A stretch of 64,000 nucleotides of DNA from a virus. The stretch is taken from positions 1-64,000 of IMG/VR virus record IMGVR_UViG_3300050821_013910; one strand, written 5' to 3'. A program made the position numbers and the translations under genes. Shown here in pieces: positions 15,214-60,217 of this stretch (the first letter of the stretch is position 1; every line of letters starts with the position of its first letter). Below the pieces are notes generated by a model that was not told the DNA's origin, made no database searches, and saw nothing but the letters and a program-made list of their open reading frames with translations.

Positions 15214-15633
15214 GTGAAGAAAGCTTCTGGGTGGTATGCCTGTCGGCACGGTATCCCCGGCCAAGACACCGAGAGGCGTATATACATGGCTCGCTATATC
15301 CTTGGAATGGACCCTTCAGATAAGCGGCACGCCGATCACAAAAATCGCCGGACGCTCGACAATCGGGATCGCAATCTTCGCCCTGCTACTCGTCGTCAGA
15401 GTGTAGTAAACAGAGGGGTGCGCAAGGACAGCGCAACTGGAGTCAAGGGTGTCCGCCGCTGCAAGGCGAATGGTGTTTATGTGGGAAGATATCAGGCGCG
15501 AATAATATATAAGTATAAGGAAATCTACTTAGGGACTTACGATACTCTGGAAGAGGCAAGCCGGGTGTATATGGAGGCTGCTCGAAGGTTGTTTGGAAAG
15601 TTCGCCACGACTGGTCGAAAGAAGAGGAAATAA
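15214..15633 (+). CDS. homing endonuclease, HNH-AP2 part, 139 aa
   Basis: The HNH core is HADHKNRRTLDNRDRNLR (about 39-56), followed by a link rich in Asn/Arg and an AP2 DNA-binding domain (VKGVRRCKANGVYVGRYQAR... YLGTYDTLEEASRVYMEAAR). The GTG at 15214 has no good ribosome site. It lies in the same frame as the preceding ORF after a single TGA, so either it is made from the GTG alone or the gene is a pseudogene. Its stop codon overlaps the probable terminase N-terminus. Confidence 0.75.
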   Translation: MKKASGWYACRHGIPGQDTERRIYMARYILGMDPSDKRHADHKNRRTLDNRDRNLRPATRRQSVVNRGVRKDSATGVKGVRRCKANGVYVGRYQARIIYKYKEIYLGTYDTLEEASRVYMEAARRLFGKFATTGRKKRK

Positions 15634-17444
15634 CTACGCCCCTTAATCTCCATCACGTTGAACGCTTCTTTTCCCGGCTCAACATCCGCGACCGCGACGA
15701 CGGAACTCTTCACCCATTCATTCTTCGTGAGCAGCAGCAACAGGTCTTAGAACAATTCAAGGGTCATCTTGCTCGCCGCCGCCGTCTCTTTGGCGTGTTC
15801 CTCAAAGCTAGGCGCATTGGACTATCTACTCTCGCTACCGGTCTGGGTCAAGCGCACTGCATTGCCCATCCCGGATCACTCGCTCGCTGTATCGCGCAGA
15901 ACGCTGAGGTGGCGGCGGCTAACTTTGCGATGGCCTGTAGCTTTCGTGAAGATTGTAAAGACCTCTATTCAGGCGCTCCGAAACCAACTAAGAAGACACT
16001 AATATGGCCGCATAGTGATGGCCCCGATTCTCAATTTACTCACCATACCGCTGCTACCGTGCATGGTCAGCGCGGACTTACTTCCTCGTTCCTCCACCTC
16101 ACGGAAGCAGGGTTCTATCCCTATTCGGGCGCCTTCACGTCATTACTTAATACACTTTCAAAAGACCCCAACAACGCGGTCATCATTGAAACGACCGCGA
16201 ATGGTATGGAAGGACCGGGTGAGGCTTATTATCAGTGTTGGGAGGCAGCCGTAGCCGGGGACAATGAGTTTCTTCCCATCTTCTTACCATGGTGGGATGA
16301 CCCCGCTTATAACCTCCCCGAAGAGTTCGCCCTTGATGCTCCCCGCGACGAGTACGAGAAGTATTTGATGAATGATGTTAAGCATTGGAAAACCGGCAAG
16401 AAGGTGGAGATAACTAAGAGCCAGATAGCTTGGTTCAGGGAGACTCTCTCTGCCAAGTGTGAGGGGATCATTGAGAAATGGAGGCAAGAGTACCCGGCCA
16501 CTCCAGAAGAGGCTTTTGTAGCGACGGGTAACCCCGCTTTCACCATAGAAGAAATGCAATTCGCCGAGAACTCGATCGTTAAAATCCCCTGGCAAGGCCG
16601 TTGCGTCCTGACCCTCGACCAAAAACACGGCGAACTCCAAAAGGGAACCGACGGGCCGCTGGTCCTCTACGAGACTCCCCAGAAGGGCGCTCACTATTTC
16701 GCGGGGGTGGACTCAGCCCGCGGAGAAGAATCCACCATGGCCCCCGGAGACTACGCGGCTATGGTCTGCTTCAATGCCGAAACGGGTGACTTGGCGGCAA
16801 GATATATGTCTCGTGTGTCCCCTGAGGAACTGGCCTCCGTCGCTGCCGCACTCGGTTACTACTTCAACGGGGCGATGCTGAACGTCGAACTCAACAACAT
16901 CGGCTACGTGACCATGAAACAACTGCGCGACGTTTACTACTACCCCAACCAGTATCTCTGGAAGGGTCGCGATGACCGGGCCGACAAGTCCAAACAGGGG
17001 ATGGCCTACGGATTCGAGACCAGCGACCGTTACCGCCGCATGATGTTCTCGCTATTCCGCACGGCCATCCACAGCAAGCGGGTCGTCCCCAAGGATCGCG
17101 TGCTGGTCTCACAAATGAAGAAAGCCAAGCTGGAAATGAACTGGCGCTGGAACGTTGCCGTCGGACATGACGACGTGCTGATGGCGGCGCTACTTTCGTG
17201 GATCGCTGTCGAGCAATACCACAGTGCTCCCTGTCAGCATCGCTCTCCCAAGAACGTGCTGATGACCAAGGATGAGTTAGAGAATGCTGGATTCTCTCCT
17301 ACTCGCGGCCAGATGCCAGAGTGGACCAAGGACCCAACTGTCACCGGCATGGGAGCGCTCCTGACCACCGGCAATGACCATCTCAAGAAGCTCGAACTCT
17401 ACAACAAGGCCAAGCAGAAGGTCAATCGGTTGCAATGGATCTAG
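15630..17444 (+). CDS. terL: terminase large subunit (start codon unclear), about 603 aa
   Basis: ATPase and nuclease of the DNA packaging motor. Seen: a Walker-A-like LKARRIGLST, a Walker-B-like SFLHLTEAG, coupling motif ETTANG, and nuclease acids in FAGVDSARG, LNVELNN and HDDVLMAALL. Conserved N-terminal sequence (VERFFSRLNIRDRDDGTLHP, then Q-rich helix) is encoded from about 15636, yet the frame holds no ATG, GTG or TTG from its opening at 15519 until GTG 15795. Starting at 15795 would leave the Walker motif at residue 4, which is implausible. ATA 15630 or ACG 15636, just after GAGGAA, are the nearest candidates. Confidence 0.9.
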   Translation: MTTPLNLHHVERFFSRLNIRDRDDGTLHPFILREQQQQVLEQFKGHLARRRRLFGVFLKARRIGLSTLATGLGQAHCIAHPGSLARCIAQNAEVAAANFAMACSFREDCKDLYSGAPKPTKKTLIWPHSDGPDSQFTHHTAATVHGQRGLTSSFLHLTEAGFYPYSGAFTSLLNTLSKDPNNAVIIETTANGMEGPGEAYYQCWEAAVAGDNEFLPIFLPWWDDPAYNLPEEFALDAPRDEYEKYLMNDVKHWKTGKKVEITKSQIAWFRETLSAKCEGIIEKWRQEYPATPEEAFVATGNPAFTIEEMQFAENSIVKIPWQGRCVLTLDQKHGELQKGTDGPLVLYETPQKGAHYFAGVDSARGEESTMAPGDYAAMVCFNAETGDLAARYMSRVSPEELASVAAALGYYFNGAMLNVELNNIGYVTMKQLRDVYYYPNQYLWKGRDDRADKSKQGMAYGFETSDRYRRMMFSLFRTAIHSKRVVPKDRVLVSQMKKAKLEMNWRWNVAVGHDDVLMAALLSWIAVEQYHSAPCQHRSPKNVLMTKDELENAGFSPTRGQMPEWTKDPTVTGMGALLTTGNDHLKKLELYNKAKQKVNRLQWI

Positions 17445-18838: not shown

Positions 18839-19033
18839 TTGTCCGACACCCCCCGCGCGAAATACCAGTCCGGCGCCCCCTCCGAGTTCTCCTTCTCTCT
18901 GCCTCAGAACTCGCGTAAGGAGTACAACTCCCCGGCGGCCCGGCCCTCTGGTCGGTCCGGCGGTGGTCCCGCCGTCTCCACCCCCCATCGTGTGTCCGCC
19001 TCCCGCCGCCATCGCAAGGGAGCGCGCGCATGA
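18839..19033 (+). CDS. small hypothetical protein, 64 aa
   Basis: The TTG at 18839 follows the site AGGGAGGCACCCTC, and its TGA overlaps the next start as ATGA (19030-19033), both usual here. N-terminus MSDTPRAKYQSGAPSEFSFS; the C-terminal half is Arg/Ser-rich. Competing Pro-rich frames over 18664-19046 lack ribosome sites. The 95 bases before it (18744-18838) hold no other gene I can support. Confidence 0.5.
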   Translation: MSDTPRAKYQSGAPSEFSFSLPQNSRKEYNSPAARPSGRSGGGPAVSTPHRVSASRRHRKGARA

Positions 19034-19356
19034 TGGACGACCCTGAAGTAACGATCGAACCCGCCGACAACGGCTACATCGTCCGGCACTACGAGCGATC
19101 CACCAAGAAGGACGAAGGGGGCCGGACGATCCGGCGCGTGGCCTCCTCCGCCGACGAAGCCTTAGAGCATGCAGGCAAGGTGCTCGGAGGCGCTGGCAGG
19201 ATGGGCAAGAAGAGGACCTCTCGCGGCGGTGGTGGTGGCGATGGCGAGTCCGAACCAGCCTCTCCCTCTACCCTTGCCGGGCACTCCCTCCACTCCTCCT
19301 CCTCGCGCGCCCGTTCCGCCCGCCGCCGCCGTCCCCGGATCGGAGGCCGCCGGTGA
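19030..19356 (+). CDS. hypothetical protein, 108 aa
   Basis: No family recognised. The first 55 residues look folded (VTIEPADNGYIVRHYERSTK, then ASSADEALEHAGKVLGG); the rest is Gly/Ser/Arg-rich and ends in a run of Arg. ATGA overlap before, GTGA overlap after. Confidence 0.55.
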   Translation: MMDDPEVTIEPADNGYIVRHYERSTKKDEGGRTIRRVASSADEALEHAGKVLGGAGRMGKKRTSRGGGGGDGESEPASPSTLAGHSLHSSSSRARSARRRRPRIGGRR

Positions 19357-19505
19357 AACAGTCCGAGTCTCGCGGCTGCGGCATGATGGAAAAAGACGAG
19401 TCTGCGTCCTACGAGGCGAAGTCGCACCCGGTCTCGTTCCTTCGTAAAGCGGTCAGGTTGGCTGAGAAGAAATCCTCGAAGCGATCAGCTAGGAAACGAG
19501 GGTGA
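19353..19505 (+). CDS. small basic protein, 50 aa
   Basis: GTG start overlapping the preceding TGA. The C-terminal half is strongly basic (KAVRLAEKKSSKRSARKRG). First of several tiny Arg/Lys-rich ORFs around the portal gene. Confidence 0.5.
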   Translation: MKQSESRGCGMMEKDESASYEAKSHPVSFLRKAVRLAEKKSSKRSARKRG

Positions 19506-19508
19506 CAG

Positions 19509-19694
19509 ATGCCGGTCGAGCATTTCAAATCCAAAGTTGCCGAGATGCGCAACCTTGCCTACCGTCACATCCACTCGATCCCCTACACCGCCACTTCCGC
19601 CGTCGTCGCCGGCCATTCCCACAAGGTCAAGCACTCCGGTAATCCCCGCCGCAAGCGGATCAACGCTCGCCAGCGCGCTCGCAAAAGGAGTTAG
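19509..19694 (+). CDS. small basic protein, 61 aa
   Basis: Starts 3 bases after the preceding stop with GAGGGTGACAG upstream. His/Arg/Lys-rich, ending NPRRKRINARQRARKRS; likely to bind nucleic acid or acidic protein. No family recognised. Confidence 0.55.
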   Translation: MPVEHFKSKVAEMRNLAYRHIHSIPYTATSAVVAGHSHKVKHSGNPRRKRINARQRARKRS

Positions 19695-19764: not shown

Positions 19765-21525
19765 ATGATCGCCAACCCCTCGCGCAAGAGCGCGAAGCAG
19801 GAGCACATCGATCCGAGGGCGAGGCATCTAGAGGACTGGATACAAGCGTCTGACTCCGCGCGCAACAAGGCATTGGGAGAGGGCTTCGCTAAGGCTGCGG
19901 AAGATTTGTATAACCTCAGCGACGCCATGACGCCGGGGCCTGTCTACAGGCCTTCCTTAAGCATCCCCATGCTGCAAAGAATAATGCTGGAGGAGTCCAA
20001 CCAAGTCAGCAGCCTGAGTCCGCGTATGTACGTCTTCCCGTCGGCGGGCTCCTCCGATCCTTCCTACAGCGGTGCCCAGCAAGCCGACCCTTCTCTCCCC
20101 TCTACTACTTCGCGTGACTTAGCGCGTGAAGTGTCCCTCCAGGCGCAGTGGCAGATCAGCAAGATGAACTTGCACCTGCTGATGGCCGGACTAACTGCCC
20201 GGTATTGTGGAGCTGGCTGGATAGTCTCGGGGTTTGATCCTGACTTGAGTCGCGCTCGCGGGGGCATGTGGGCTCGATCTATTGATCCCCGGCTGGTGTT
20301 TTTTGATCCTGGGACCGACTACACCTGGAACCCCTCCTACGCTGGCTGGCGGACTTGGATGAACCTCGAAGACGTCCGGCTGAAATGGCCCGAGACCTCC
20401 CGCGCCGTCCAGCCCAAGCACACCTCGGGCGGGTTCCAGCCTTTCTCGGGGGACTCAGGTTATGGTATCTCGCAGCCGCCCGGCCCGATGTCGTCGATGC
20501 CCTCGGCCTCGGGCCAGAACGCCAAGACTCAGGTAAGCGAATCGCGAGTCTTAGTAACCCACTGCTTCTGTCGCGACTACACCCGCGTTCAGGTCGAGAA
20601 GCCGGATGTGCCGCAGACCTCGCTCATTGATCCAGAGGTCCGGCTGAAGTATCCCAATGGCAGGTGGATCGTGGAGGCAGAAGGCGTTATCCTCCAGGAC
20701 GGCGACAATCCCTACCCACCGCGGCGCGATCTCATGGCCCCGACCTTTCCGCTGTTCCCGAACTGGGTCCTCCCTCCCCTCTTCGGACCCTGGGGCATCC
20801 CCGTCACCCGCATGACCGAAAACCTCCAGCGCCTGGCCCAGCGCTTCTACACCCAGATCTTCGAGAACGGCCTCCGGATGAACAACGGGGTATGGTTCAT
20901 CGATGAGAACACCGGGATCGACATCGACGGGTTCGGCGGGCTGCCTGGCGAAGTCTGCACGATCAAGCCGGGGTCGCGCATTCCCTCGACCGTCACCCCT
21001 AACGCGATGGGAGCCGGAGCGCTGCAGGGGGCCGAGAAACTCCTTGCCCTCCAGAACGACTGCCTCGGGTTCTCAGCCAGCCGCCAGGGCGAGCCGGGCG
21101 CGGGGAACGTCTCGACCGACCTTTTCGACAGCGCTGTCCTCCAGTCCTCCGGTCTCCTCCAACTGGCCGGCCGGTTCCTCGCCGAGACAGCCGAGTCGAT
21201 CGGCAGTTTCATGTTCGACACCATGTGCAAGTACCAGCAGAAATCCACTCTAGCCTACAAGGGACCGGAAGGAATTTCCCTAGCCAGTTGGAACGGTCAG
21301 GTTGATCCGATGACTTATGACCTTGCACTGGACGATGCCAGCGTGCGCCCGCTGAGTGAGGCAGTTATCAGAAAAATCACGCCTGACCTGATGAAATCTG
21401 GAGTTGTAAGTCCCGAGCGCGGACTCCGCACCCTCGGCTATCCCGATCCCGAAGGTGTTTCTCGCGAGCAGGAAACTTCGCAGGCCCTAGCTGCACTAGC
21501 CAAAGTCAGATCAGGCAGGAAATGA
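19765..21525 (+). CDS. portal protein, 586 aa
   Basis: Head-tail connector ring through which DNA is packaged. Identified by position after the terminase, by size, and by features typical of podoviral portals: an N-terminal helical region, WARSIDPRLVFFDPGTDYTW in the middle, the RMTENLQRLAQRFYTQI helix, and a C-terminal helical crown (SREQETSQALAALAKVR). The upstream AGGGGAG lies rather far from the ATG. Confidence 0.8.
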   Translation: MIANPSRKSAKQEHIDPRARHLEDWIQASDSARNKALGEGFAKAAEDLYNLSDAMTPGPVYRPSLSIPMLQRIMLEESNQVSSLSPRMYVFPSAGSSDPSYSGAQQADPSLPSTTSRDLAREVSLQAQWQISKMNLHLLMAGLTARYCGAGWIVSGFDPDLSRARGGMWARSIDPRLVFFDPGTDYTWNPSYAGWRTWMNLEDVRLKWPETSRAVQPKHTSGGFQPFSGDSGYGISQPPGPMSSMPSASGQNAKTQVSESRVLVTHCFCRDYTRVQVEKPDVPQTSLIDPEVRLKYPNGRWIVEAEGVILQDGDNPYPPRRDLMAPTFPLFPNWVLPPLFGPWGIPVTRMTENLQRLAQRFYTQIFENGLRMNNGVWFIDENTGIDIDGFGGLPGEVCTIKPGSRIPSTVTPNAMGAGALQGAEKLLALQNDCLGFSASRQGEPGAGNVSTDLFDSAVLQSSGLLQLAGRFLAETAESIGSFMFDTMCKYQQKSTLAYKGPEGISLASWNGQVDPMTYDLALDDASVRPLSEAVIRKITPDLMKSGVVSPERGLRTLGYPDPEGVSREQETSQALAALAKVRSGRK

Positions 21526-21845
21526 GGAAGACAGCCATGCAGACTCCCGTCGCCGACCAACCCGCCCCCTCGCGACCCCGACCACACCCACACGTTCCTG
21601 TTCGGGAGGAGACAGAGATGGAGTCGGCCTCCGCCTTGGCTTCCCCCGCCCGCTCTGTCCCTCCTCATTCGTGGAAGGGACATTGGCTATCCGCGCGAGA
21701 ATTTGCCGGAGTAATGAACCGTAAGGAACAAACTATCTACAAATGGGCGCGGATTGGAACCTTGGCGGAATTCCAAATTTCTGTATGTAAGTTTCAAGGA
21801 CGTAAGCCGCACACGGCTAGGTTATGGATTCTTAATCCATTCTAG
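21522..21845 (+). CDS. HTH (excisionase/MerR-like) protein, 107 aa
   Basis: Starts by ATGA overlap with portal. A disordered Pro-rich first half is followed by WLSAREFAGVMNRKEQTIYK and WARIGTLAEFQI, the winged-helix pattern of excisionase-type or MerR-like domains. It could be a DNA-binding regulator or a small structural factor. Confidence 0.6.
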   Translation: MRKTAMQTPVADQPAPSRPRPHPHVPVREETEMESASALASPARSVPPHSWKGHWLSAREFAGVMNRKEQTIYKWARIGTLAEFQISVCKFQGRKPHTARLWILNPF

Positions 21846-21866
21846 CCGTGCTTGGCATCCCTACTC

Positions 21867-21898
21867 AACCGATCCTGAACCCAACCGATCCTGACCCG
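21867..21898. repeat. tandem 16-bp repeat in a non-coding gap
   Basis: Two adjacent copies of AACCGATCCTGAMCCS. The same gap (21846-22118) also has a 14-bp direct repeat ACCACTCCATGCCT at 21920-21933 and 21990-22003. I see no gene in the gap; on the minus strand it is the 3' region of the gene ending at 22119. Confidence 0.5.
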
Positions 21899-22118
21899 AC
21901 CGGACCCAACCTGACAACTACCACTCCATGCCTCCAGCGAACCTTGTCAGACCAGAGACTGCCATAGCGGACCCGTTGGACCCCACACAACCACTCCATG
22001 CCTATGCAAGCCTGACCGGCCTTTCGGCCCGTTCCACGCCTTGTCGATCCTTGACTTGCCGTATCCAGTCTCGCACCAACTCTCCGCGTTTGTCCTTGTA
22101 CAACCACGCCAAGGCGGA

Positions 22119-22757
22119 TTATTTTAACTCGACCACGTTGAACGATGTAACTTGGAAGCGTCCAAAACTAGGACGAAAATCACCTACTCCGACGATCCTT
22201 CCTGCGTAAGCAAGTGTCTCATGCAGCATTCGATGGTCGATGTACTCCGGCAGAAGAACTTGCAAACTTACTTTGCATTTCCAACCTGCAAGCATGGCCG
22301 GACGAACGCGCGTGATTCCATTGCGTTGAATAACTACACGCCGCTGGTCGAGGTAGTCAGGTTCCTTGACTCCGAGGGAGCAGAGTTCTCCGATGGTGCA
22401 AATTCCAGCTTTGAACAAGTCCATCGCTGACTTCCTTGGTGAGCGCGGGTCCTGTCGGAACTTTGACGCACCAATAATACTCATGCGGAAGTATTCAGAT
22501 GGAATCGCAAGAAGTCCCTTCACGTCGCGGTACAGATAGCTCTCGATGTTATCCGACTTCTTCGCCGCCGACCCCTTTTTGCTTGCCGCCTTCTCGGCAA
22601 CGGCCTCACAACTCCAGCGATGGAAGAGGATCGACGCCGTGCCTTCAATCTCAGCCTCGATCATGTAAGGGGACGATAGCTCGATGTCGTCCTTTGCATC
22701 GTTCGTGGTGTTACTCAGTGCTGTTGCCTTGGTTGCCATTTCTTTCTCTTGCTCCAT
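22119..22757 (-). CDS. conserved hypothetical protein, possibly RAMP/Cas7-like, 212 aa
   Basis: Encoded against the late genes. Features: IEGTASILFHRWSCE near the N-terminus, a Lys/Ser-rich loop, LLAIPSEYFRMSIIGASKF, RRVVIQRNGITRVRP, and a C-terminal IVGVGDFRPSFGRFQV. The spacing of a beta-alpha-beta core with a late G-x-G-x-x-R-P-x-x-G-R-F loop loosely recalls RAMP (RRM-fold) proteins, but no family is certain. Start is either the ATG at 22757 or the one six codons later. Probably cotranscribed with the RHH gene upstream. Confidence 0.7.
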   Translation of the reverse strand: MEQEKEMATKATALSNTTNDAKDDIELSSPYMIEAEIEGTASILFHRWSCEAVAEKAASKKGSAAKKSDNIESYLYRDVKGLLAIPSEYFRMSIIGASKFRQDPRSPRKSAMDLFKAGICTIGELCSLGVKEPDYLDQRRVVIQRNGITRVRPAMLAGWKCKVSLQVLLPEYIDHRMLHETLAYAGRIVGVGDFRPSFGRFQVTSFNVVELK

Positions 22758-22836
22758 TCCTTGATTCGTAGTGCCTTGCCCAAACTAGCCACGTCTTGTC
22801 AAAACATGCCAATCCGTACCCGGACCCGCCGAGCCA

Positions 22837-22974
22837 TTAGAGTTTGTACTTCCGTGCGAGTTCTCGAAGCGCCAGTTCAATGACCGCCGAACGCTTGAGT
22901 CCAAGCACCCTTGAGAGTTGGATCAGGAGGTTCAATCCAACTTGCCCTAGTCGGATACTTGTAGGAGAACTCAT
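22837..22974 (-). CDS. ribbon-helix-helix repressor, 45 aa
   Basis: The protein (TSIRLGQVGLNLLIQLSRVL, then GLKRSAVIELALRELARKY) has the Arc/CopG pattern: one beta strand, a helix, a G-x-x-R-S-A-V turn and a second helix. Such proteins act as dimers of dimers on short operators. No Shine-Dalgarno is seen; the ATG lies 6 bases after a -10 element, so the message is probably leaderless. It likely represses its own two-gene minus-strand unit. Confidence 0.7.
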   Translation of the reverse strand: MSSPTSIRLGQVGLNLLIQLSRVLGLKRSAVIELALRELARKYKL

Positions 22975-22980
22975 ACTGGA

Positions 22981-23009
22981 AATGTAGTGAATATGCGCTA
23001 CAAAGTCAA
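22981..23009 (-). promoter_or_regulatory. promoter TTGACT-17-TACATT for the RHH gene
   Basis: On the minus strand TTGACT (23004-23009) and TACATT (22981-22986) are exactly 17 bases apart, and the ATG begins 6 bases later. An inverted repeat TGTAG-N10-CTACA covers the spacer and -10, a plausible autoregulatory operator. Confidence 0.6.
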
Positions 23010-23132
23010 GAGTTTTTTATACAGTGTTATCCCACCCCTGCGCCCTTCTCCCTCCCCTCGCCGTACCATTGTCCTCAATCACCCCCGCCCTTCCAGCACC
23101 TCCGGTCGTGCGCGTGTGAAAGGAGAATCATC

Positions 23133-23186
23133 ATGTACGAATTCAAGGATCGTCGCAAGAAGCGGCACGAAGGCAAACGCCGGTAG
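23133..23186 (+). CDS. tiny basic peptide, 17 aa
   Basis: MYEFKDRRKKRHEGKRR, preceded by an excellent AAAGGAG site 8 bases away. Ten of 17 residues are Arg, Lys or His. Without the site and the similar neighbours it would not be called. Confidence 0.4.
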   Translation: MYEFKDRRKKRHEGKRR

Positions 23187-23256
23187 TCCGGCCTTGCCCT
23201 TCCCACCCGCCCTCTTCGTCGCCCAACCAACTTCCCCGGAAGGAGCCTGATCCCAG

Positions 23257-23385
23257 ATGGCCGGACATCCCTCGAAATCATCCGCCCGCGTCGTCAAGGA
23301 CTACCTCCAGCCCAAGAAGTTCCTGCGCGACATGCGTGCCAAGGCCGCCAAGTATTCGCACTCGCGGACTCGGAAGCGGACCTAG
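23257..23385 (+). CDS. small basic protein, 42 aa
   Basis: GGAAGGAG lies 12-20 bases before the ATG. Sequence MAGHPSKSSARVVKDYLQPK, then KKFLRDMRAKAAKYSHSRTR: an amphipathic, very basic helix. No family recognised. Confidence 0.5.
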   Translation: MAGHPSKSSARVVKDYLQPKKFLRDMRAKAAKYSHSRTRKRT

Positions 23386-23507
23386 CTCATCCCGGAGACG
23401 GTAGCGTTGCCCTTCGCACCCCGTCTTCTTAGCCAGCCCCGGCGACCAGTCCGACTAACTCTCTGACTGACTCGACCTCGGGCAACCCGGAGCGAAGGAG
23501 GTACGCC

Positions 23508-23564
23508 ATGGCGGCTCGTGGTGGTAGGCGATCCAAGCGTCGGCGCACCGCCGCTCGCAAGTAG
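23508..23564 (+). CDS. tiny Arg-rich peptide, 18 aa
   Basis: MAARGGRRSKRRRTAARK behind a strong AAGGAGG site (23495-23501). Protamine-like composition. The region 23386-23507 before it shows no other gene. Confidence 0.4.
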   Translation: MAARGGRRSKRRRTAARK

Positions 23565-23592
23565 GGCCAGACCGGATAACCAGTCTGGGCCA

Positions 23593-23646
23593 TTCGGCGG
23601 CGAGGTGGGAACTGGTGGGGGACTAGACCTCATCCCTTCCGCCGAA
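23593..23646 (+). other. predicted long hairpin between small ORFs
   Basis: TTCGGCGG (23593-23600) pairs with CCGCCGAA (23639-23646), and inside it GAGGT (23602-23606) pairs with ACCTC (23627-23631). A second hairpin, GGCCAGAC with GTCTGG-GCC, lies just upstream. No T-run follows, so it is not an intrinsic terminator. Confidence 0.4.
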
Positions 23647-23742
23647 AGTGTTCGATGCGCAAGACAGGAGTGCGGGCGGGACAGGCTGGAGCAATCCGAT
23701 CTGACCCGCCGGACTCCCAACCCAACCCGGAGGGAGACTCCT

Positions 23743-23898
23743 ATGCACGGAATGAGAATGAAGCCGCAGCCTGGCGGCACCGGCACCAAGGCCACCAGCA
23801 CCAAGCACACTATGCAGGAGCACCATCGTAACGAGGTGCCCAAGATGAAGGGCCGCGTGGACCGGCGCGTAGGCCGGAGCCGGATCGGCCGCAGGTAG
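23743..23898 (+). CDS. small basic protein, 51 aa
   Basis: GGAGGGAG precedes the ATG. Met/Gly/Thr-rich first half (MHGMRMKPQPGGTGTKATST) and a C-terminus rich in Arg and Gly (KGRVDRRVGRSRIGRR). The same frame is open upstream from 23518 but without a site. No family recognised. Confidence 0.5.
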   Translation: MHGMRMKPQPGGTGTKATSTKHTMQEHHRNEVPKMKGRVDRRVGRSRIGRR

Positions 23899-23915
23899 GC
23901 GGCAGGCAGCGAGCA

Positions 23916-23974
23916 GCAACCGAGTAGCAACCGAGTAGCAGGCAGCAACCAGCGGAACCAGCGGAACCAGCGGA
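23916..23974 (+). repeat. short tandem repeats (11 bp x2, 9 bp x3)
   Basis: GCAACCGAGTA is repeated at 23916-23926 and 23927-23937, and ACCAGCGGA three times at 23948-23974, directly before the ribosome site of the next gene. Looks like slippage-generated leader DNA. Confidence 0.7.
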
Positions 23975-23992
23975 ACCAAGGAGGAACAGCAG

Positions 23993-24190
23993 ATGGCTAG
24001 GGAAAAAGAAGGCCTAGGGGTAAATTTCGACACCGAGATTTTGAAGAGTCCATTGACAGTGGGTAGAACAGGCAACGAGCCCGGCCCCGACGTCAACAAC
24101 ACCCCGGTCGCCCGGCCCAAGGACCCCCTCGGCCTGATCCCTGAAGGCGGGGACAAGCCGTACTGGTCGGACAACAAGTACAAGCCGTAA
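23993..24190 (+). CDS. hypothetical protein, 65 aa
   Basis: Strong AAGGAGGAACAGCAG before the ATG. Charged N-terminus and a Pro/Gly-rich, probably extended remainder (GLIPEGGDKPYWSDNKYKP). No family recognised; a minor virion component is possible. Confidence 0.6.
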   Translation: MAREKEGLGVNFDTEILKSPLTVGRTGNEPGPDVNNTPVARPKDPLGLIPEGGDKPYWSDNKYKP

Positions 24191-24213
24191 GCGCGGACCA
24201 CTGACCCCCTCCG

Positions 24214-24759
24214 ATGGCCACCCCTCCCAATCCCGCTCTCGCCCAGATGATGGCCCGGCAGCTGATCCAGAAGATTGCTGGCGCTGGGGGCGGTCCTCCT
24301 GCGGGCGGTCCCCCGGCCGGCCCCGGTGGCCCTCTGCCTCCTCCGCCAGGGATGATGGGCGCGGGCGGTCCCGGTGCGGGTCCCGGAGCAGGCGGTCCAG
24401 GTGGACCCGGTGGTGGTCCTCCCGGTCCCGGCTCCCCTCCGACCACTCCCGCCGGCCTCCAGTTGTCGCAGCAACTGGCCGAACTCCAGGGCGCCGACCC
24501 CGACGCCATGGTCAAGTCCCTCACCTCGATCAAGTCCGTTGCCGTCTCCCTCTACACCCGCGCCGCCTTCACCCTCCCCGGCGTCACGCGCAACCTCGCT
24601 CAGGTGGTCAAGTACCTCGACAACTCGATCCAGGAAGCGGAGAAGGCAGCCGCTGCTACCGCTGCCGCCGGACCAATCGCCAACAACGCGGCCATCCCCA
24701 ATCCCAGCGGTCAGAACGGGTCGGCACCCGTGGCAGGGATGATGATCCAGCCCCAGTAG
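24214..24759 (+). CDS. Gly/Pro-rich head-region protein, 181 aa
   Basis: A short helix (LAQMMARQLIQKIAGAG) is followed by about 60 residues of Gly/Pro repeats, then a helical domain (LQLSQQLAELQGADPDAMVK, LAQVVKYLDNSIQEAEKAAA). Small proteins of this style lie between portal and scaffold in several podoviruses. No family recognised. Confidence 0.6.
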   Translation: MATPPNPALAQMMARQLIQKIAGAGGGPPAGGPPAGPGGPLPPPPGMMGAGGPGAGPGAGGPGGPGGGPPGPGSPPTTPAGLQLSQQLAELQGADPDAMVKSLTSIKSVAVSLYTRAAFTLPGVTRNLAQVVKYLDNSIQEAEKAAAATAAAGPIANNAAIPNPSGQNGSAPVAGMMIQPQ

Positions 24760-24778
24760 CAGCAGGAAGGAACCAGCG

Positions 24779-25042
24779 ATGCACTACAAAAACGGACGCG
24801 AGGCGAAGAACGGCGACAAGGTCGTCCTGTTCCCCTCCTATGGCCTACCAATCGTAGGTATCCTCTACGATGCGGTGGCAGGCAACGACTATTGCAACGG
24901 CCATATCGCCGTGACCTACCAGAACGATCCCTGCCCGAACCTCAAAGAGTGCCTTCACCTCGACGACGTGCTTGGCATCATTCCGCCGGATGTCCCGGAC
25001 AGGTCCGCCGCGCCAACCAGCGCTGTACCGGTCGCAAGCTAA
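24779..25042 (+). CDS. small phage protein, 87 aa
   Basis: Starts MHYKNGREAKNGDKVV, the beginning of a small beta-barrel-like (KOW/SH3-like) family seen in phages, then GILYDAVAGNDYCNGHIAV. A GGAAGGAACC site precedes it. Function unknown. Confidence 0.65.
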   Translation: MHYKNGREAKNGDKVVLFPSYGLPIVGILYDAVAGNDYCNGHIAVTYQNDPCPNLKECLHLDDVLGIIPPDVPDRSAAPTSAVPVAS

Positions 25043-25063
25043 CTCGAAAGAAGGAGTCCCCCG

Positions 25064-26050
25064 ATGGCCTTGAAAGACATCCTCTCGAACGCCAAGTACG
25101 CCGACGACATGATCCTCAATCTCCCCGACGGCTCCACCGTTCAAGTCGGCGAGATACGCGCCCTGCCCGCCGCCGAGCGCGCGGCCCTGACCTCCCAGAT
25201 CGAGCAGCGCCAGTCCACTCTGGGTCAGGCGGAACTGGCTTTCGCGGCCAAGTTTCAGGAAGCGGTCCGGGCAGGCTGGCTGGCGCAGGACGGCAGGATC
25301 GTTCCCCCTCAGTCGACCACCACGACCACCACCCCCGCCATAACCACCACTTCCACCACGGCCGACCTCCGCCGTGCCGCCGCCGCCGAGTACAACCTCG
25401 ACGAGAACGACCCTCTCCTCGGCCCGGTCGTCAAAGCGATGAAGCAGGAATTGGCCGAGCGGGACAAGACGCTGACCGAGTTGAAGACCAAGCTCGACGC
25501 CCTCCCCTCCCAGTTCGACTCCCTCAAGACCACCCTGACCGACTCCCTGAGCAAGGTCACCGGCGTCGTCAACACCTCGGTCGGCCGCTACCTGAACGAC
25601 ACCTACCAGCAGCAATTCGCCGCCGCCACCAAGGACCTCCCCGCCGCCGTCAAGGTCGACTACGAGACCGCCTTCAAATACGCCTCGGAGAGGAACCTCA
25701 AGGACAAGGACGGGTTCCTCCAGATCGACGCGGCGGTGGACCGGCTGACCTGGGACCAGCGGAAGAAGGCGGAACTGGACAAGGAACGCGCCGACCTGAT
25801 CGCCAAGACCACCCGCGAGCTGGAGGAGAAGAACAAGCTGGCTTCGCTGACCCCGCCCCAGTCGCTCTCCCTCCTCCACCAGTCGGCCAAGCCCAAGGAC
25901 GGCGATTTCGTCCCCTACAACGAGCGCACCGACTCCAAGGGGAACAAGGTCCGCGCAGTCAAGTCGTTCGAGGAAGCAATGTCCGAGGCGATGTCGGACG
26001 AGGACGTGCTGAAGTCGGCTATGGCGACGGCCTCGGGAGTGATTCAGTAG
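25064..26050 (+). CDS. putative scaffolding protein, 328 aa
   Basis: Directly upstream of the capsid gene. Very charged and helical, with long coiled-coil-like stretches (MKQELAERDKTLTELKTKLD, RKKAELDKERADLIAKTTRE) and a Thr-rich linker at about 85-100. This placement and composition are typical of phage scaffolds, which template capsid assembly and leave before packaging. No protease motif is visible. Confidence 0.65.
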   Translation: MALKDILSNAKYADDMILNLPDGSTVQVGEIRALPAAERAALTSQIEQRQSTLGQAELAFAAKFQEAVRAGWLAQDGRIVPPQSTTTTTTPAITTTSTTADLRRAAAAEYNLDENDPLLGPVVKAMKQELAERDKTLTELKTKLDALPSQFDSLKTTLTDSLSKVTGVVNTSVGRYLNDTYQQQFAAATKDLPAAVKVDYETAFKYASERNLKDKDGFLQIDAAVDRLTWDQRKKAELDKERADLIAKTTRELEEKNKLASLTPPQSLSLLHQSAKPKDGDFVPYNERTDSKGNKVRAVKSFEEAMSEAMSDEDVLKSAMATASGVIQ

Positions 26051-26173
26051 TCCGGTAGTTCGAGCAGCACCGCCAGTTTTCCCTTGAGGCCGTGACCCTT
26101 TCCGACCTCCTGACCTCCACCCACCAACCCGTCGGCGACCTCCCCCCGTTCGCTCGACCCAGGAGTGATTGAA

Positions 26174-27160
26174 ATGGCCAACAGCGTCGTAGGTCTCGGC
26201 CTGGCATCGCCGCCGGTTCAACTCTCGAATACAGTAAACGCCATCTCGCAGAAGTTTATCGTCCCGGTCCTCGGGGATAACGTCTTCAAGCCTTCCCCCG
26301 TGTTCTGGGCTCTCACCCGCGAGGGGAAGCGATTCGGGGCCGGGGAACTCATCTTCCCTGAGATCTACCAGGAAGAACTCCCAGGCGGCGCCTACTACGG
26401 CGACCAGCTCCTGGACACCTCGGTCGTCGATTCGGTCCAGCCGGCCAACCAACAGTGGAAGCCCTACCGCCAGCCGGTGGTGATCCCCATCACCGACATC
26501 ATCCTCAACCGCGGCGGCTCGAACAACCTGGACATCATCCGCGCCAAGTTCCAGACCGCCTCTGGGTCCTTCCTCCAGAAGCTCTCCCGCGCCCTCTGGC
26601 ACACCTCCCCCCAGAATACCTCTCTCGATATCGACGATCTGAACGCCTGGGTGGTGACCACCACCAACACGATCGCCGGGATCTCGCGCGCTTCCTCGGC
26701 CAATGCCTGGTGGCTCGCTGCAACCGCTGTCTCGGGAGGTTCCGCGGCCCTCACCTCCGCCGTCGCCGAACCCGGCTACCAGTCCGTCACCTGGGGCTAC
26801 GACGAGCCCGACCTGTTCGTGATGCCCCGCGCCTCCTACGCCGCGTTCAAGGGGAACTTCGTCACCAATATCCGGTTCGGGCAGGGGATGCAGGACGACG
26901 AGGCCCTGCAGGTCGGCTTCCGCAACCACTTCCTGTTCAACAATGCGGTCACGGTCGCCGACTACTTCGCCACCGCCAACCAGGCCCTCCTGCTGAACTC
27001 CAAGTACATCTTCCCGGTGTTCCACGAGGCCGACTACTTCAATGTCGATCCGTTCCTGAAGCCGAGCAACCAGCGCGTTCTGGTCTCGTGCATGTATTTG
27101 ACATGGAACCTCTCCTGTATCTCGCCCCGCATGAACGTGGCCTTCACGTCGATCACGTAG
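26174..27160 (+). CDS. major capsid protein, 328 aa
   Basis: HK97-fold candidate by position, size and sequence type: an N-terminal arm leading to FWALTREGKRFGAGELIFPE, IPITDIILNRGGSNNLDIIR, SFLQKLSRALWHTSPQ, DEPDLFVMPRASYAAFKGNF, and a C-terminal strand region. The ATG at 26174 sits behind AGGAGTGATTGAA; an in-frame GTG at 26165 is less likely. Confidence 0.8.
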   Translation: MANSVVGLGLASPPVQLSNTVNAISQKFIVPVLGDNVFKPSPVFWALTREGKRFGAGELIFPEIYQEELPGGAYYGDQLLDTSVVDSVQPANQQWKPYRQPVVIPITDIILNRGGSNNLDIIRAKFQTASGSFLQKLSRALWHTSPQNTSLDIDDLNAWVVTTTNTIAGISRASSANAWWLAATAVSGGSAALTSAVAEPGYQSVTWGYDEPDLFVMPRASYAAFKGNFVTNIRFGQGMQDDEALQVGFRNHFLFNNAVTVADYFATANQALLLNSKYIFPVFHEADYFNVDPFLKPSNQRVLVSCMYLTWNLSCISPRMNVAFTSIT

Positions 27161-56040: not shown

Positions 56041-59000
56041 TTACCCGGCATGTGCGACCTCCTCCACCCGCTCCTCCACCTGAGCCAGCGCCGGAACCTC
56101 TCGCATCTCGCCCCAGTTCTTCCCCACCGCGCAATCAACTCCTATCCACAATCCCTCCGGAGCAGCCGGGCCGATCAGGACCTTGCTGGGAGATTCGAGG
56201 ATCGGACGGACTCTGACCAGCATCTCCTCCAGCAACCGCTCGTCGAAATGAAAAACGCAGCTATCGTGAATGTTGTCACAAAGTCCGTAGCGCTCGGCCA
56301 GTCCTGCCCTATCCAATTCCTTCAACTTCTCTCGGATATGCCCGAACGCGATATTGCTCAGCCAGAAACTGATCGCCTCCTCGCCCTGATCCCCGTGCCC
56401 CCACTCCGACTTCCTCCCGTCCCACCTGAACACCTCGTAGTAGTGGCGCAAGTGTCCAAATTCAGTCTGCAAGAAAGTCTGCTCGTGGGCACGCTGCTGG
56501 ACCCACCGCTGCCAAGCGAACACCTTCGGGAAGACCTCCTCGTAGGCGGCCAGGATCGCCTTGGCCTCGGCCACCCCGGAGAAGAATTCCATGTACCTGT
56601 CGTATAACCCGTTTGCTTTCAATCCGTTACCTATACCTAAGCCCGCATGTTTAATCTTGCTGTCCCGGATGTCCTTGTACTTGTCGTTCGACTTCAGCCA
56701 TTTGCATCGGGCCTTCAGTTCCGCATCCGACTCCTTTAGAATCTCCTGCACGCGCCACAGCTTCAGGAAGTGCCCAGTCATAATGCTGTGCATGTCGATC
56801 CGGGCGAGACGGATGTAGTTAGGGTCGTTGGCGAGGTATCCCAGGGTCAGCACATGGCAGGACTTGAAATCCCACTCGGCCAGCAGCATCCCAGGTTCCG
56901 CTACAACCATCTCGCGCACGGCCTTCGCCAGCCGACCATGCTTAGGGAAGTTCTGGATGTTGGGATTCCTACTGCTCAACTGTCCAATCGCCGTCGCAAA
57001 GGTGAAAGTAGTATGCACCCTTCCGTCCGCGTGCGGCCTGAACCCCTCCACATAAGTCCCCTTGGCCTTCCTGATCTCGCGGCACTCGATCACCTTCAGA
57101 TAGAACGTATCCTTCCACCTCGCCGACAGCCTGATCAACTCCTTCTTGCCAGTGGTCTTCTTGCCGTCCTTGCTCTCGGGAATCTTGTGGCGCCGGGCGG
57201 TCATGTAAGCCATCAGTTGAGGAGAGGAATTGGGCGAGAACTCGTACACCCGACACCACTGCTGGGAGGCTCCCATCTCCCCCGCCGACGACTTCACCAA
57301 CTTCTTGCCTGACTCGTTCGGGACCAGCCACAGCCGGTCGAAGTAGTACCACTCGCCCGGTTCCTCCTCGCCCTCGTCGTTCTTGGTTGAGGCCTCCTGG
57401 AACCGACGCTGGCGGATGGCAGTCAATTCCTCCTCCGTGACCCCGACCCACCTCGCCGCCAGCGCCTCCCTCCTCAGCTTCTCCCTCGCGCCTTTCCCGA
57501 GCGGCTTCCCTTTCTCATTGACCAGATCGTCCGGAGGCATCTCGGTCGGCCTCACTTCCTCCAGCATCTCCCTCACCTGCTCGGGGACCGTCTTATAGGG
57601 ATGGATCTTTCTCGCCGCGTCCGGGAACCTCGCGTCCAGCTCCACCCTGGCCTCCTTCTCGGCTCGGTCGAACTCGACTCCCAGTTCCAGCCTCTTCTTA
57701 TCGTCGATCGGCAGGCCCCGGTCTTCCATCGCCGCGAGGATCGGCCGGACCATCTCCACCTGCGCGACGTACCCGGCTGCCTGTCTGCCGGCAACCGGGT
57801 CCCACCAGATCTTCCGATCCTCCATCGTCTTCCTGGTCGTCTGGTAGACCCGCAGCGCCGCGTCCGTGTCCACGATCCCGTAGAACTCCAGGCATTCCTC
57901 GTTGTAGTGCTTCCAGGGGAAGGGGAACGACGAGAACGAGGCCGAGAACTGGAGGTGGGCGGGGAGGTCGGGCTGCGCGAAGTGATGCTGCTGGAGGGTA
58001 TCGTGGATCGTTCCGGCGTAGTCAAGGTAATCTGGATTGCCGAAGTCTCTCTCACCTACAGCGCGAAGAACCTTCCTGTCAAACAACCAGCAGTTGCTGA
58101 CGAGACCTGCCCGTGTAAAGAACGAATGCGTGTCTTCAACAGTAATGCAATATTTGTCACGTTGCGAATACTGCTTCGGAGAAGCCAGCCGTACGCTATC
58201 CACCCATCCAAGTTGAGGCACTGGATACTCGATCCACCCGTTGTACTTCCCTCGGTATGATTCAGGCAGTTTGTATTCTACACAAGGATGCAGAAACCTA
58301 CATATTGCCTCAAAGAACTTTTTTGAAGCGCCAACTCCCAGAGCCAGCACTGCCTTGTTTTGAATTGAACACCTACCTTGGAATCTATCCTCGAACCACT
58401 TCTTAATCTGGTCGTAAGTTTCTGGCGCGAAACCATGGAGACAGACACGAGCAGTTTTGTTCTTTCTCTGTTTACTGGCCAGGAATCCATCGTCACCATA
58501 AAAGACAGCTAAGGCACGGTTCGATAGCGAAGGAAATATTCCATATGGAACACCGCACCCTGCGAACACTTTCTGCCTTCCTTCATAAAACACACTCCTC
58601 CAGCGGCGTGGCACGTAACACTGAGCCATCCAAGCTACTTCCTCGTTCTGAGTTAACGTGCTGAACGTGATCTGCTGGCTTAGCTTCGTTCCAAAGGCAG
58701 TAGCCTTCGCTTGTGCCCATGCCTTGTTCGTGTGAGCTACCTTTAGCACACCACGTGGAGATACGTAGCCATCTCCCAACAACGTTCCTATGATCAGATC
58801 AGGGTGACCTGTTCTTGGAATGGGTACTTGGTCTCCGGGCTGCAACTGATTAGCCTTGGTCTTGGTGCCGTCGTACAAGAACCACTCATGATCCGGCGTG
58901 CATATCACGCCCGGATTTCCCCACCGTCCCACCCCTCGGTTGTAGGCACCATCAACCTTGACTTCCAGCCAGCCACGATCATCCTTAGTGTGTAAGGTTC

Positions 59001-60216
59001 CACAAACCTTGGACTCTACAACCTGACCTAGCTTAAGAGACTTAACCTTCTCTCCATCCGTTACTTTCCAGATTGGCTTCCATGTACCATCAGCCATCCA
59101 CACTGATGTGTTTTGGGCGAAGCAATTATGCCCGCACTTCGGGAGAGGCAATTTATTCAACCACCTGGTCGCCGCAATCCCGTCCTGGTCCCACTGCAGG
59201 GCCACGCCCTGCCCCGGATCGATCGAGAATTGACTGAGCCGGACCTGAGTGTCAGTGAACCCGTCGGTCGCGTCCTCATCTAGGGAGGCCGACTCGAAGG
59301 TCTCGATGTCGTGCGAGAGACACAGGTAGGAGGCGGCGCGAGCGTCGGGGGAGAGGGCCAGCCAGGCGTCGCTGCGAGCCTTCACATCCCGGCAGAACCG
59401 GTCCAGGTCGCGGCGGGTCGGGTGGAGCTGGTAGCGGAGGTTGTGGCGCTGGAGCCAGGCGGCGAGGTCGGATTGGATCTGCTGCTTCCGGCGCTGCTCC
59501 CAGTCGGCATACCCCGAGTCCCAAGGGTCGGGGTTGGTCAGCGGGTCGTAGGGCTGGCCGACTCCCCTCAGCGCCAGGTCGGGCAGGTCCAGGATGAAGT
59601 TGGTGTCCCGCCCTGCCGCCACATTCACCGCCCGCGCGATATCCCTGGCCAGCACTCCGGTCAGGTGAATCGCGCCACCGCGGAGGAAGCTGGGGTGGTA
59701 GGTCGGGAGGACAAGGAGAGGGTCGGAGTCGTGGTCGCGGCCAGCGGCGGCGCAGAATTGCGGGAGAGCGCGCAGGACGTAGCCGCGGAGGTGCGATATA
59801 GTTTTTTGCGTTCCCGACATTCCAGTCAAGGTCCGCAGCGCAACATTCCCGAAAGCCAGCAGCACCTTCGGCCGGAACTTTCTCAGCGCGTCCAGCAGGT
59901 TCCCTTCGCAGTGCTGGATCGCTTCGTATTCATAAGACTGACCTTCGAGCAAATTTTGGGGCGGACGGCAGCGCAACACGTTCGTAACTGAGAAGCTATC
60001 CCGCCCCAGTCCTAACCTTCTGATAGTCCGTTCAAAGATCGCGCCGGATGGCATATAAGGGCGCAGAGGAAGTTCGTCCCGAGCTTCTCCCTCGCCGCTG
60101 GCTTCGGCGATGCACATGACCTTGTTATGACCGGAACCCTCGACGGCAGAGAAGTCGGTGCCACAGTTGACCAGGGGACAGCCTGCACAGGATGGGGGCC
60201 GCGTACGACTTACCAT
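56041..60216 (-). CDS. uracil-DNA glycosylase / 3'-5' exonuclease / family-A DNA polymerase fusion with intein, 1391 aa
   Basis: Numbering from the ATG at 60216 (site AAGGTGG). Residues 1-200: UDG family 4-like with Fe-S cysteines CAGCPLVNC and CRPP, ASGEGEARDELPLRPYMPSG and YHPSFLRGG. Exonuclease: ExoI SHDIETF (about 302-308), ExoII GHN/C-WLFD split by an intein at 365-708, ExoIII YGIVDTDAALR. Polymerase from about 830: IGQLSSRNPNIQNFP, motif A EWDFKSCHVLTLGYL (about 1114), motif B region RDSKIKHAGLGIGNG, motif C CDNIHDSCVF. Should be the replicative polymerase. SPO1-type polymerases also carry a UDG domain. A TTG at 60234 in the same frame is an alternative start. Motifs A and C are divergent. 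Confidence 0.9.
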   Translation of the reverse strand: MVSRTRPPSCAGCPLVNCGTDFSAVEGSGHNKVMCIAEASGEGEARDELPLRPYMPSGAIFERTIRRLGLGRDSFSVTNVLRCRPPQNLLEGQSYEYEAIQHCEGNLLDALRKFRPKVLLAFGNVALRTLTGMSGTQKTISHLRGYVLRALPQFCAAAGRDHDSDPLLVLPTYHPSFLRGGAIHLTGVLARDIARAVNVAAGRDTNFILDLPDLALRGVGQPYDPLTNPDPWDSGYADWEQRRKQQIQSDLAAWLQRHNLRYQLHPTRRDLDRFCRDVKARSDAWLALSPDARAASYLCLSHDIETFESASLDEDATDGFTDTQVRLSQFSIDPGQGVALQWDQDGIAATRWLNKLPLPKCGHNCFAQNTSVWMADGTWKPIWKVTDGEKVKSLKLGQVVESKVCGTLHTKDDRGWLEVKVDGAYNRGVGRWGNPGVICTPDHEWFLYDGTKTKANQLQPGDQVPIPRTGHPDLIIGTLLGDGYVSPRGVLKVAHTNKAWAQAKATAFGTKLSQQITFSTLTQNEEVAWMAQCYVPRRWRSVFYEGRQKVFAGCGVPYGIFPSLSNRALAVFYGDDGFLASKQRKNKTARVCLHGFAPETYDQIKKWFEDRFQGRCSIQNKAVLALGVGASKKFFEAICRFLHPCVEYKLPESYRGKYNGWIEYPVPQLGWVDSVRLASPKQYSQRDKYCITVEDTHSFFTRAGLVSNCWLFDRKVLRAVGERDFGNPDYLDYAGTIHDTLQQHHFAQPDLPAHLQFSASFSSFPFPWKHYNEECLEFYGIVDTDAALRVYQTTRKTMEDRKIWWDPVAGRQAAGYVAQVEMVRPILAAMEDRGLPIDDKKRLELGVEFDRAEKEARVELDARFPDAARKIHPYKTVPEQVREMLEEVRPTEMPPDDLVNEKGKPLGKGAREKLRREALAARWVGVTEEELTAIRQRRFQEASTKNDEGEEEPGEWYYFDRLWLVPNESGKKLVKSSAGEMGASQQWCRVYEFSPNSSPQLMAYMTARRHKIPESKDGKKTTGKKELIRLSARWKDTFYLKVIECREIRKAKGTYVEGFRPHADGRVHTTFTFATAIGQLSSRNPNIQNFPKHGRLAKAVREMVVAEPGMLLAEWDFKSCHVLTLGYLANDPNYIRLARIDMHSIMTGHFLKLWRVQEILKESDAELKARCKWLKSNDKYKDIRDSKIKHAGLGIGNGLKANGLYDRYMEFFSGVAEAKAILAAYEEVFPKVFAWQRWVQQRAHEQTFLQTEFGHLRHYYEVFRWDGRKSEWGHGDQGEEAISFWLSNIAFGHIREKLKELDRAGLAERYGLCDNIHDSCVFHFDERLLEEMLVRVRPILESPSKVLIGPAAPEGLWIGVDCAVGKNWGEMREVPALAQVEERVEEVAHAG
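58093..59124 (-). mobile_element. intein with LAGLIDADG endonuclease, 344 aa
   Basis: Begins with Cys (GHN|CFAQNTSVWMADGTWK) and ends ...FFTRAGLVSN|CWLFD, so splicing would rebuild GHNCWLFDRKVL, the exonuclease II motif. Splicing block B is GNPGVICTPDHEW (T-x2-H); the terminal Ser-Asn before Cys+1 and the earlier VEDTHSFFTRAG fit blocks F and G. Two dodecapeptides, LIIGTLLGDGYV and ALAVFYGDDGFL, mark a homing endonuclease. All key residues look intact except that the penultimate His is Ser. Confidence 0.9.
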
Positions 60217-60217
60217 G

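Follow-up and report, generated by a model that had tools for sequence, protein, structure and literature searches.

The head module and its micro-genes

The window, the whole 64,000-nucleotide (64 kb) stretch analysed here, is part of a 74,562-bp IMG/VR virus record. An earlier note on this DNA had described four tiny basic ORFs of 17, 42, 18 and 51 codons with clear ribosome sites, and all four are in place on the plus strand; they are called a to d here. ORF a (23133..23186; MYEFKDRRKKRHEGKRR, net charge +6) follows a Shine-Dalgarno (SD) sequence AAGGAG at 23120-23125. ORF b (23257..23385, net +11) has AAGGAG at 23240-23245, 11 nt before its ATG, which is a long spacing. ORF c (23508..23564; MAARGGRRSKRRRTAARK, net +9) is preceded by GAAGGAGG at 23494-23501, and ORF d (23743..23898, net +11), the C-terminal part of which is conserved, by GGAGGGAG at 23729-23736. 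Over the whole 64 kb, both strands included, 20 ORFs of 10-70 aa combine an ATG with a strong SD, and among those 20 a net charge per residue of at least 0.22 is found in a, c, d and the minus-strand ORFs 34156 and 45916; b falls outside this filter because its SD spacing is long. The conserved core of b, KFLRDxRA, belongs to a product with a predicted helix at residues 20-34 (AF2 model, mean pLDDT 67, about 85 within the helix).

The gene order is terminase, small basic ORFs, portal, a-d, three genes, presumed scaffold and major capsid protein (MCP). The terminase (15795-17444) matches PHROG 2; directly before it, a 139-aa ORF (15214-15633) carries an AP2 domain, a weak HNH match and a basic tail. 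The 586-aa product of 19765..21525 (+) is a portal protein by predicted fold, its model (mean pLDDT only 61.6) matching the portals of SU10, Pan3, N4 and P22 with E values of 1e-13 to 1e-7; it also has a weak Pfam SU10_portal match. The three genes at 23993, 24214 and 24779 lie between d and the presumed scaffold, and the MCP (26165..27160, +) matches PHROG 9953 (E 1.1e-21). The earlier note had set the ORFs between portal and scaffold: the portal end of that description is borne out by fold, whereas the 328-aa scaffold (25064-26050) is named from its place, no family match to it having been found. A 212-aa gene of PHROG 4652 (22119-22757, minus strand) sits between the post-portal HTH-like gene and ORF a, with a tblastn match in only 2/67 loci, its own record included.

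Two further basic ORFs named in the earlier note, at 19353 and 19509, are both present and basic, with ribosome sites weaker than those of a-d. The first (19353..19505, +; 50 aa, GTG start, net +8, tail KKSSKRSARKRG) has orthologues in relatives. The second (19509..19694, +; 61 aa, net +13) is mosaic, with different basic ORFs standing at its place in most relatives, and its match to FAZ1_cons (E 0.033) is below the Pfam cut-off. A 108-aa ORF (19030..19356, +) also ends in a basic tail, with +8 in its last 15 residues. In an ORF list made by greedy choice, which contains spurious minus-strand ORFs, tails of at least +6 over the last 15 residues occur in seven genes at 19.0-23.9 kb and in two elsewhere. 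Across 19030-19694 and the clade-1 pre-portal loci the ORFs form a mosaic in which the bodies differ and the basic tails (KRG, RKRS, RSRA) are shared. One clade-2 pre-portal ORF, in L088, corresponds to PHROG 2423.

Profile scans of b, d and the pre-portal ORFs against Pfam and PHROGs gave zero significant matches (the best PHROG match of b had E 0.038); a and c, at fewer than 20 residues, fall outside those scans. The cassette as a whole has no Pfam, PHROGs or Rfam match, and the NCBIfam run covered its neighbours only. Among sequenced isolates there are no relatives of the portal, b, e or a 362-bp piece of the DNA. In Myxococcus phage Mx9, with a capsid protein match of 26%, no such cassette was seen, and an MCP profile search of genome contigs for a host gave zero matches.

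Conservation and selection in relatives

The earlier note had tied its case to conservation of the ORFs and their ribosome sites in relatives, and this conservation is extensive. A portal search of IMG/VR returned 66 related contigs at 79-88% identity, 53 extending to b and 51 to c. Among loci long enough, a is present in 53/53, b in 53/53, c in 51/51 and d in 49/49, in the same order and with strong AAGGAG-type ribosome sites. For a and b, 52 each were found by pattern and L012 by eye. For d, 41 were found by pattern and 8 by eye, with 2 contigs cut; a stricter d pattern recovers 34/51 only, the remainder coming from inspection or the earlier pattern. Orthologues start with ATG, and with GTG once.

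The ratio dN/dS is 0.36 for a, 0.44 for b, 0.33 for c and 0.28 for d, by a simple Nei-Gojobori estimate that is near saturation. Identical sequences were collapsed ahead of the dN/dS, stem and charge counts, and L005 and L057, where the d pattern chose wrong ORFs, were left out of dN/dS. By these comparisons a-d are almost certainly translated genes, kept by purifying selection. GC-rich DNA favours arginine codons and could yield basic ORFs by chance, but conservation, dN/dS and ribosome sites together exclude such a composition artefact, to which we assign a negligible probability.

What is conserved differs from gene to gene. Orthologues of a have 12-23 aa and mostly read MA, then K/R/H/E, then KRK; b typically reads MAGTPSKSxxRVVKDFGQPRKFLRDMRAK..., c MASRGGRRSTRRRRTAARK and d ...RMTKKVDRRVGK...K. 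Net charge in clade-1 relatives is +6 to +9 for a, +8 to +13 for b, +8 to +9 for c and +8 to +11 for d, and so is held within narrow bounds although the sequences of a and d vary much. Clade-1 c peptides have 17-19 residues, 44-50% of them K/R. Deeper relatives, with MCPs 72-89% identical, also have small K/R-rich ORFs between the portal and capsid genes, such as MARRKRHSKRK and MAHRGGRRRRRRMSRRY, with additional small basic ORFs before the portal and after e. This recurrence in distant phages marks K/R-rich micro-ORFs as a lasting feature of the head module. A search of 10 clade-2 loci turned up no d.

A probable pseudoknot over the ribosome site of c

The earlier note had missed two features of the region, a candidate pseudoknot over the SD of c and a constraint that acts on the nucleotides of c and of the spacer between c and d. 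Eight nucleotides past the b stop lies a hairpin, P1 (23394..23428, +), with the loop CCTTCGC at 23411-23417. In RNA this nearly invariant loop, CCUUCGC, is complementary over 7 bp to GCGAAGG (23492-23498); this complement shares bases with the SD of c (23494-23501) and lies within the partner segment GCGAAGGAGG (23492..23501, +). Loop and SD complement are both present in 52/52 clade-1 c loci, the window counted.

The stem is preserved as structure. Among 26 distinct hairpin versions from clades 1 and 2, stem sequence is replaced and pairing kept, and all 8 positions show three to five pair types. The stem has 7-9 bp in 24 of the 26 versions (L066 has 3 and L121 has 4) and a mean of 7.5 bp against 2.66 in shuffled sequences. 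Covariation extends to the loop:SD pairing. L097 carries a compensatory change on both sides (CTTTCGC with GCGAAAG), and in L123 one side is altered, giving a G-U pair. In clade 3 the loop (CUUCUCUC; CTTCTCTC-type) and the SD (GAGAGGAG) are both re-coded and complementary again, and the K/R-rich ORF after the re-coded site has mostly 11-13 codons (22 in L109).

A loose pseudoknot score was passed by 36/37 clade-1 c leaders, but also by 63% of shuffles and by 23/29 d leaders; since it discriminates poorly, a stricter version was used. This found the hairpin and loop:SD pairing in the window, in 13/13 clade-2 and in 9/10 clade-3 loci, with p<=0.05 in 20/24 rows (200 shuffles per row; the rows are related and p values uncorrected). 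L102 has no such hairpin, and the stems of L121 and L122 are weak (p 0.12 and 0.07); L095, L096, L099, L110, L111, L117 and L132 were left out of this search. MAFFT misregisters P1 (4- or 5-nt junctions in alignments A4 and A5), and A5, in which the ends of L123 are mis-set, entered no count. The case for a pseudoknot comes from covariation and from constancy rather than from the scores of individual sequences.

Among IMG/VR viral contigs the exact motif occurs in this phage group only, in 13 stretches. Two matches in a genome collection, neither before a basic micro-ORF, are read as chance. Rfam searches (cmscan, E<=5) gave no match in window positions 21500-25100 or in L106 6000-6500, and in L105 6000-6500 only sub-threshold matches to unrelated families.

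Taken together, the comparative data make it very probable that the pseudoknot controls translation of c. Loop:SD duplex energies are -8.0 to -11.3 kcal/mol and SD:anti-SD pairing is stronger (-13.1, -15.2), so hiding of the SD may be partial. The distance from the b stop to P1 (window 23386-23393) is exactly 8 nt in 34/35 distinct clade-1 sequences; in 10 further loci (9 of clade 3, and L123) only one upstream ORF passed the filter for this check. Such constancy is suggestive of coupling to a ribosome terminating on b, yet P1 would stay mostly intact: with the usual ribosome footprint, a ribosome at that stop would touch only the P1 edge. The same objection bears on a different account of the spacing, and of the stable hairpin downstream of c in the clade-2 loci that were folded, in which translation of c in cis, through its arginine codons and the position of the ribosome, controls downstream genes. 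A leader peptide of this kind is also hard to reconcile with the free interchange of K and R in family a and across clades, and with several basic ORFs in a row; we regard it as improbable.

Nucleotide-level constraint beyond the peptides

Codons 12-19 of c (window 23538-23561), its last eight sense codons, are invariant, synonymous sites included, in 21 distinct 19-codon clade-1 sequences. In the portal control, comprising 23 orthologues, 0/209 conserved 4- or 6-fold residues keep one codon. This points to an overlapping RNA or DNA function inside a gene of 18-19 codons. The codons of the b core KFLRDMRA are nearly invariant too, and a model of peptides alone is insufficient to explain the constraint in b and c. 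Between c and d, a conserved noncoding element (GGTGGGGGAC ... CGCAAGACAGGA; 23593..23669, +) is present in 51/52 clade-1 c loci. It covaries little (2/17 pairs, term -1.17), which leaves its structural support weak, and its core strings are absent from the distant loci checked, save CAAGACAGG once, in L098 and far from c. A conservation profile of 42 sequences has four blocks, among them 23383-23430, 23491-23562 and 23599-23670; their alternation with divergent spacers makes it less likely that the entire region was swept recently.

Blocks of this kind, with the fixed codons of c, would also be expected if RNA were the main product, with the b, P1, c and c-d blocks forming a structured RNA with a regulatory, packaging or antitermination role, and c being its protein partner or a by-product. 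The poor covariation of the c-d element and its missing core strings in the distant loci checked speak against this, and the reading frames of a, b and d clearly code. We consider RNA as the main product distinctly unlikely.

Proposed roles of the basic peptides

Comparison of the relatives shows that a-d are genes under selection and that a conserved hairpin has a loop able to pair with the SD of c, with covariation in this pairing. We propose that the locus is a cassette of basic micro-genes in the head operon, with c gated by a pseudoknot, an explanation to which, as a whole, we give about even chances. The peptides would be strongly basic, probably largely unstructured and nucleic-acid-binding; that they bind nucleic acid is likely. 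Produced alongside the head proteins, they would work on DNA that has been packaged or within the procapsid; from gene place, action inside the head is our leading guess, at just under even chances. The P1 loop would base-pair with the SD of c and hide the ribosome site, so that c is kept low or timed. The gate would limit free c. In the simplest version the peptide would bind the leader of its own gene and favour the closed state for as long as DNA or capsid has not taken it up, as in T4 gp32; alternatively, control may come from ribosomes finishing the upstream gene, or from a third factor. Autogenous control of c is possible but doubtful.

The T4 gene 32 mRNA has a pseudoknot 5' of its start, and gp32, a single-strand binding protein, represses its own translation, as described in PMC535899. 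The c leader would resemble that operator, being a candidate phage pseudoknot at the start region of a putative nucleic-acid-binding gene. In T4 the pseudoknot lies upstream of the ribosome-binding site and serves for nucleation, whereas at c it is the SD that would pair with the loop. In addition, gp32 is large and folded and c-type peptides have 11-20 residues, and autogenous binding at c is put forward by analogy. The downstream-peptide (glnA-like) RNA RF01704, found in the 5' UTR of ORFs of 17-100 aa with indels in threes (per PMC2864571), is likewise a structured RNA preceding a short conserved ORF. That family is cyanobacterial/marine and linked to nitrogen, unlike the present element, and its covariance model gave no match to the c element (window 21500-25100; L106 6000-6500).

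For the peptides themselves, a parallel is adenovirus Mu (pX), described in PMC7998265 as a 19-residue Arg-rich, DNA-binding virion peptide of 100-300 copies from a late gene. The cassette shares the short, Arg/Lys-rich, strongly basic make-up of Mu/protamine-like peptides, and the protamine-like role that the earlier note had suggested, in DNA condensation or capsid filling, is plausible. Like Mu, c is basic and has about 19 residues, c being known here from its gene; Mu is cut by a protease from a longer precursor, whereas in all 51 loci c forms a complete micro-ORF that has an SD and a start codon of its own. In the fullest form of this idea all four peptides are packaged as core peptides that neutralise or condense head DNA, the RNA element setting dosage only. 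The size and composition of c, the place in the head module and the conserved charge all agree with it, but a genome near 75 kb has ~150,000 phosphates and each peptide brings ~10 charges, so bulk neutralisation would need thousands of copies. We hold this form to be quite possible, at somewhat less than even chances. T4 internal head proteins are also basic and head-linked, but are much larger than the cassette peptides, which are known from genes, and carry N-terminal capsid-targeting sequences. In lambda N-type antiterminators an arginine-rich motif peptide binds a cognate RNA hairpin; only in composition does the cassette resemble these.

Conservation of the b helix, FLRDMRA, indicates more than charge, and unrelated neighbours have basic C-terminal tails in common. 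Both would fit a role as assembly cofactors: by attaching to scaffold, portal or other proteins, the peptides and basic tails would steer co-assembly or entry into the procapsid. Acidic partners, which the earlier note had invoked, are hard to find: the presumed scaffold is just mildly acidic, with a net charge of -6 over its 328 aa, and the portal C-terminal end is itself basic (+4 over the last 15 residues). This role is unlikely on present evidence. Phage genes under 100 aa have long been underappreciated, and small phage proteins often target the host, according to PMC11323111. Peptides binding host RNA, ribosomes or membranes would be in keeping with that, but a-d lie among head and not early genes and co-occur tightly with the portal and capsid genes; there is perhaps a small chance that they act in this way.

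Small phage proteins and SD-hiding pseudoknots are each familiar; in a search of open-access papers, neither a cassette of this kind with its own RNA gate nor such an RNA element was found described. Genes of only 11-20 codons, below the usual gene-finder limit and kept in every relative examined, can thus be part of a phage head module, probably with a regulatory RNA of their own. Presence of the peptides in the virion would give tailed phages a protamine/Mu-like solution of a type familiar mainly from viruses of eukaryotes. Should c close the leader of its own gene, RNA and peptide would form a minimal regulatory pair that is easy to synthesise. It is somewhat unlikely that c and its leader are among the smallest self-regulating circuits, in which a poly-basic peptide of 11-20 residues condenses phage DNA and in excess closes the pseudoknot, and that this switch was kept across the phage group while pairing letters, SD and peptide were all rewritten.

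Other features of the region

Some relatives carry inserted ORFs with an IDGEGC motif (between d and e in L009 and L020, after c in L120), which we take to be probably LAGLIDADG homing endonucleases. In T4, too, a homing endonuclease lies beside the gene 32 pseudoknot (PMC535899). Elsewhere, the window holds five copies of CGCAAGNNAGG against 0.8 expected, and a 1397-aa minus-strand ORF is found at 56041-60234.
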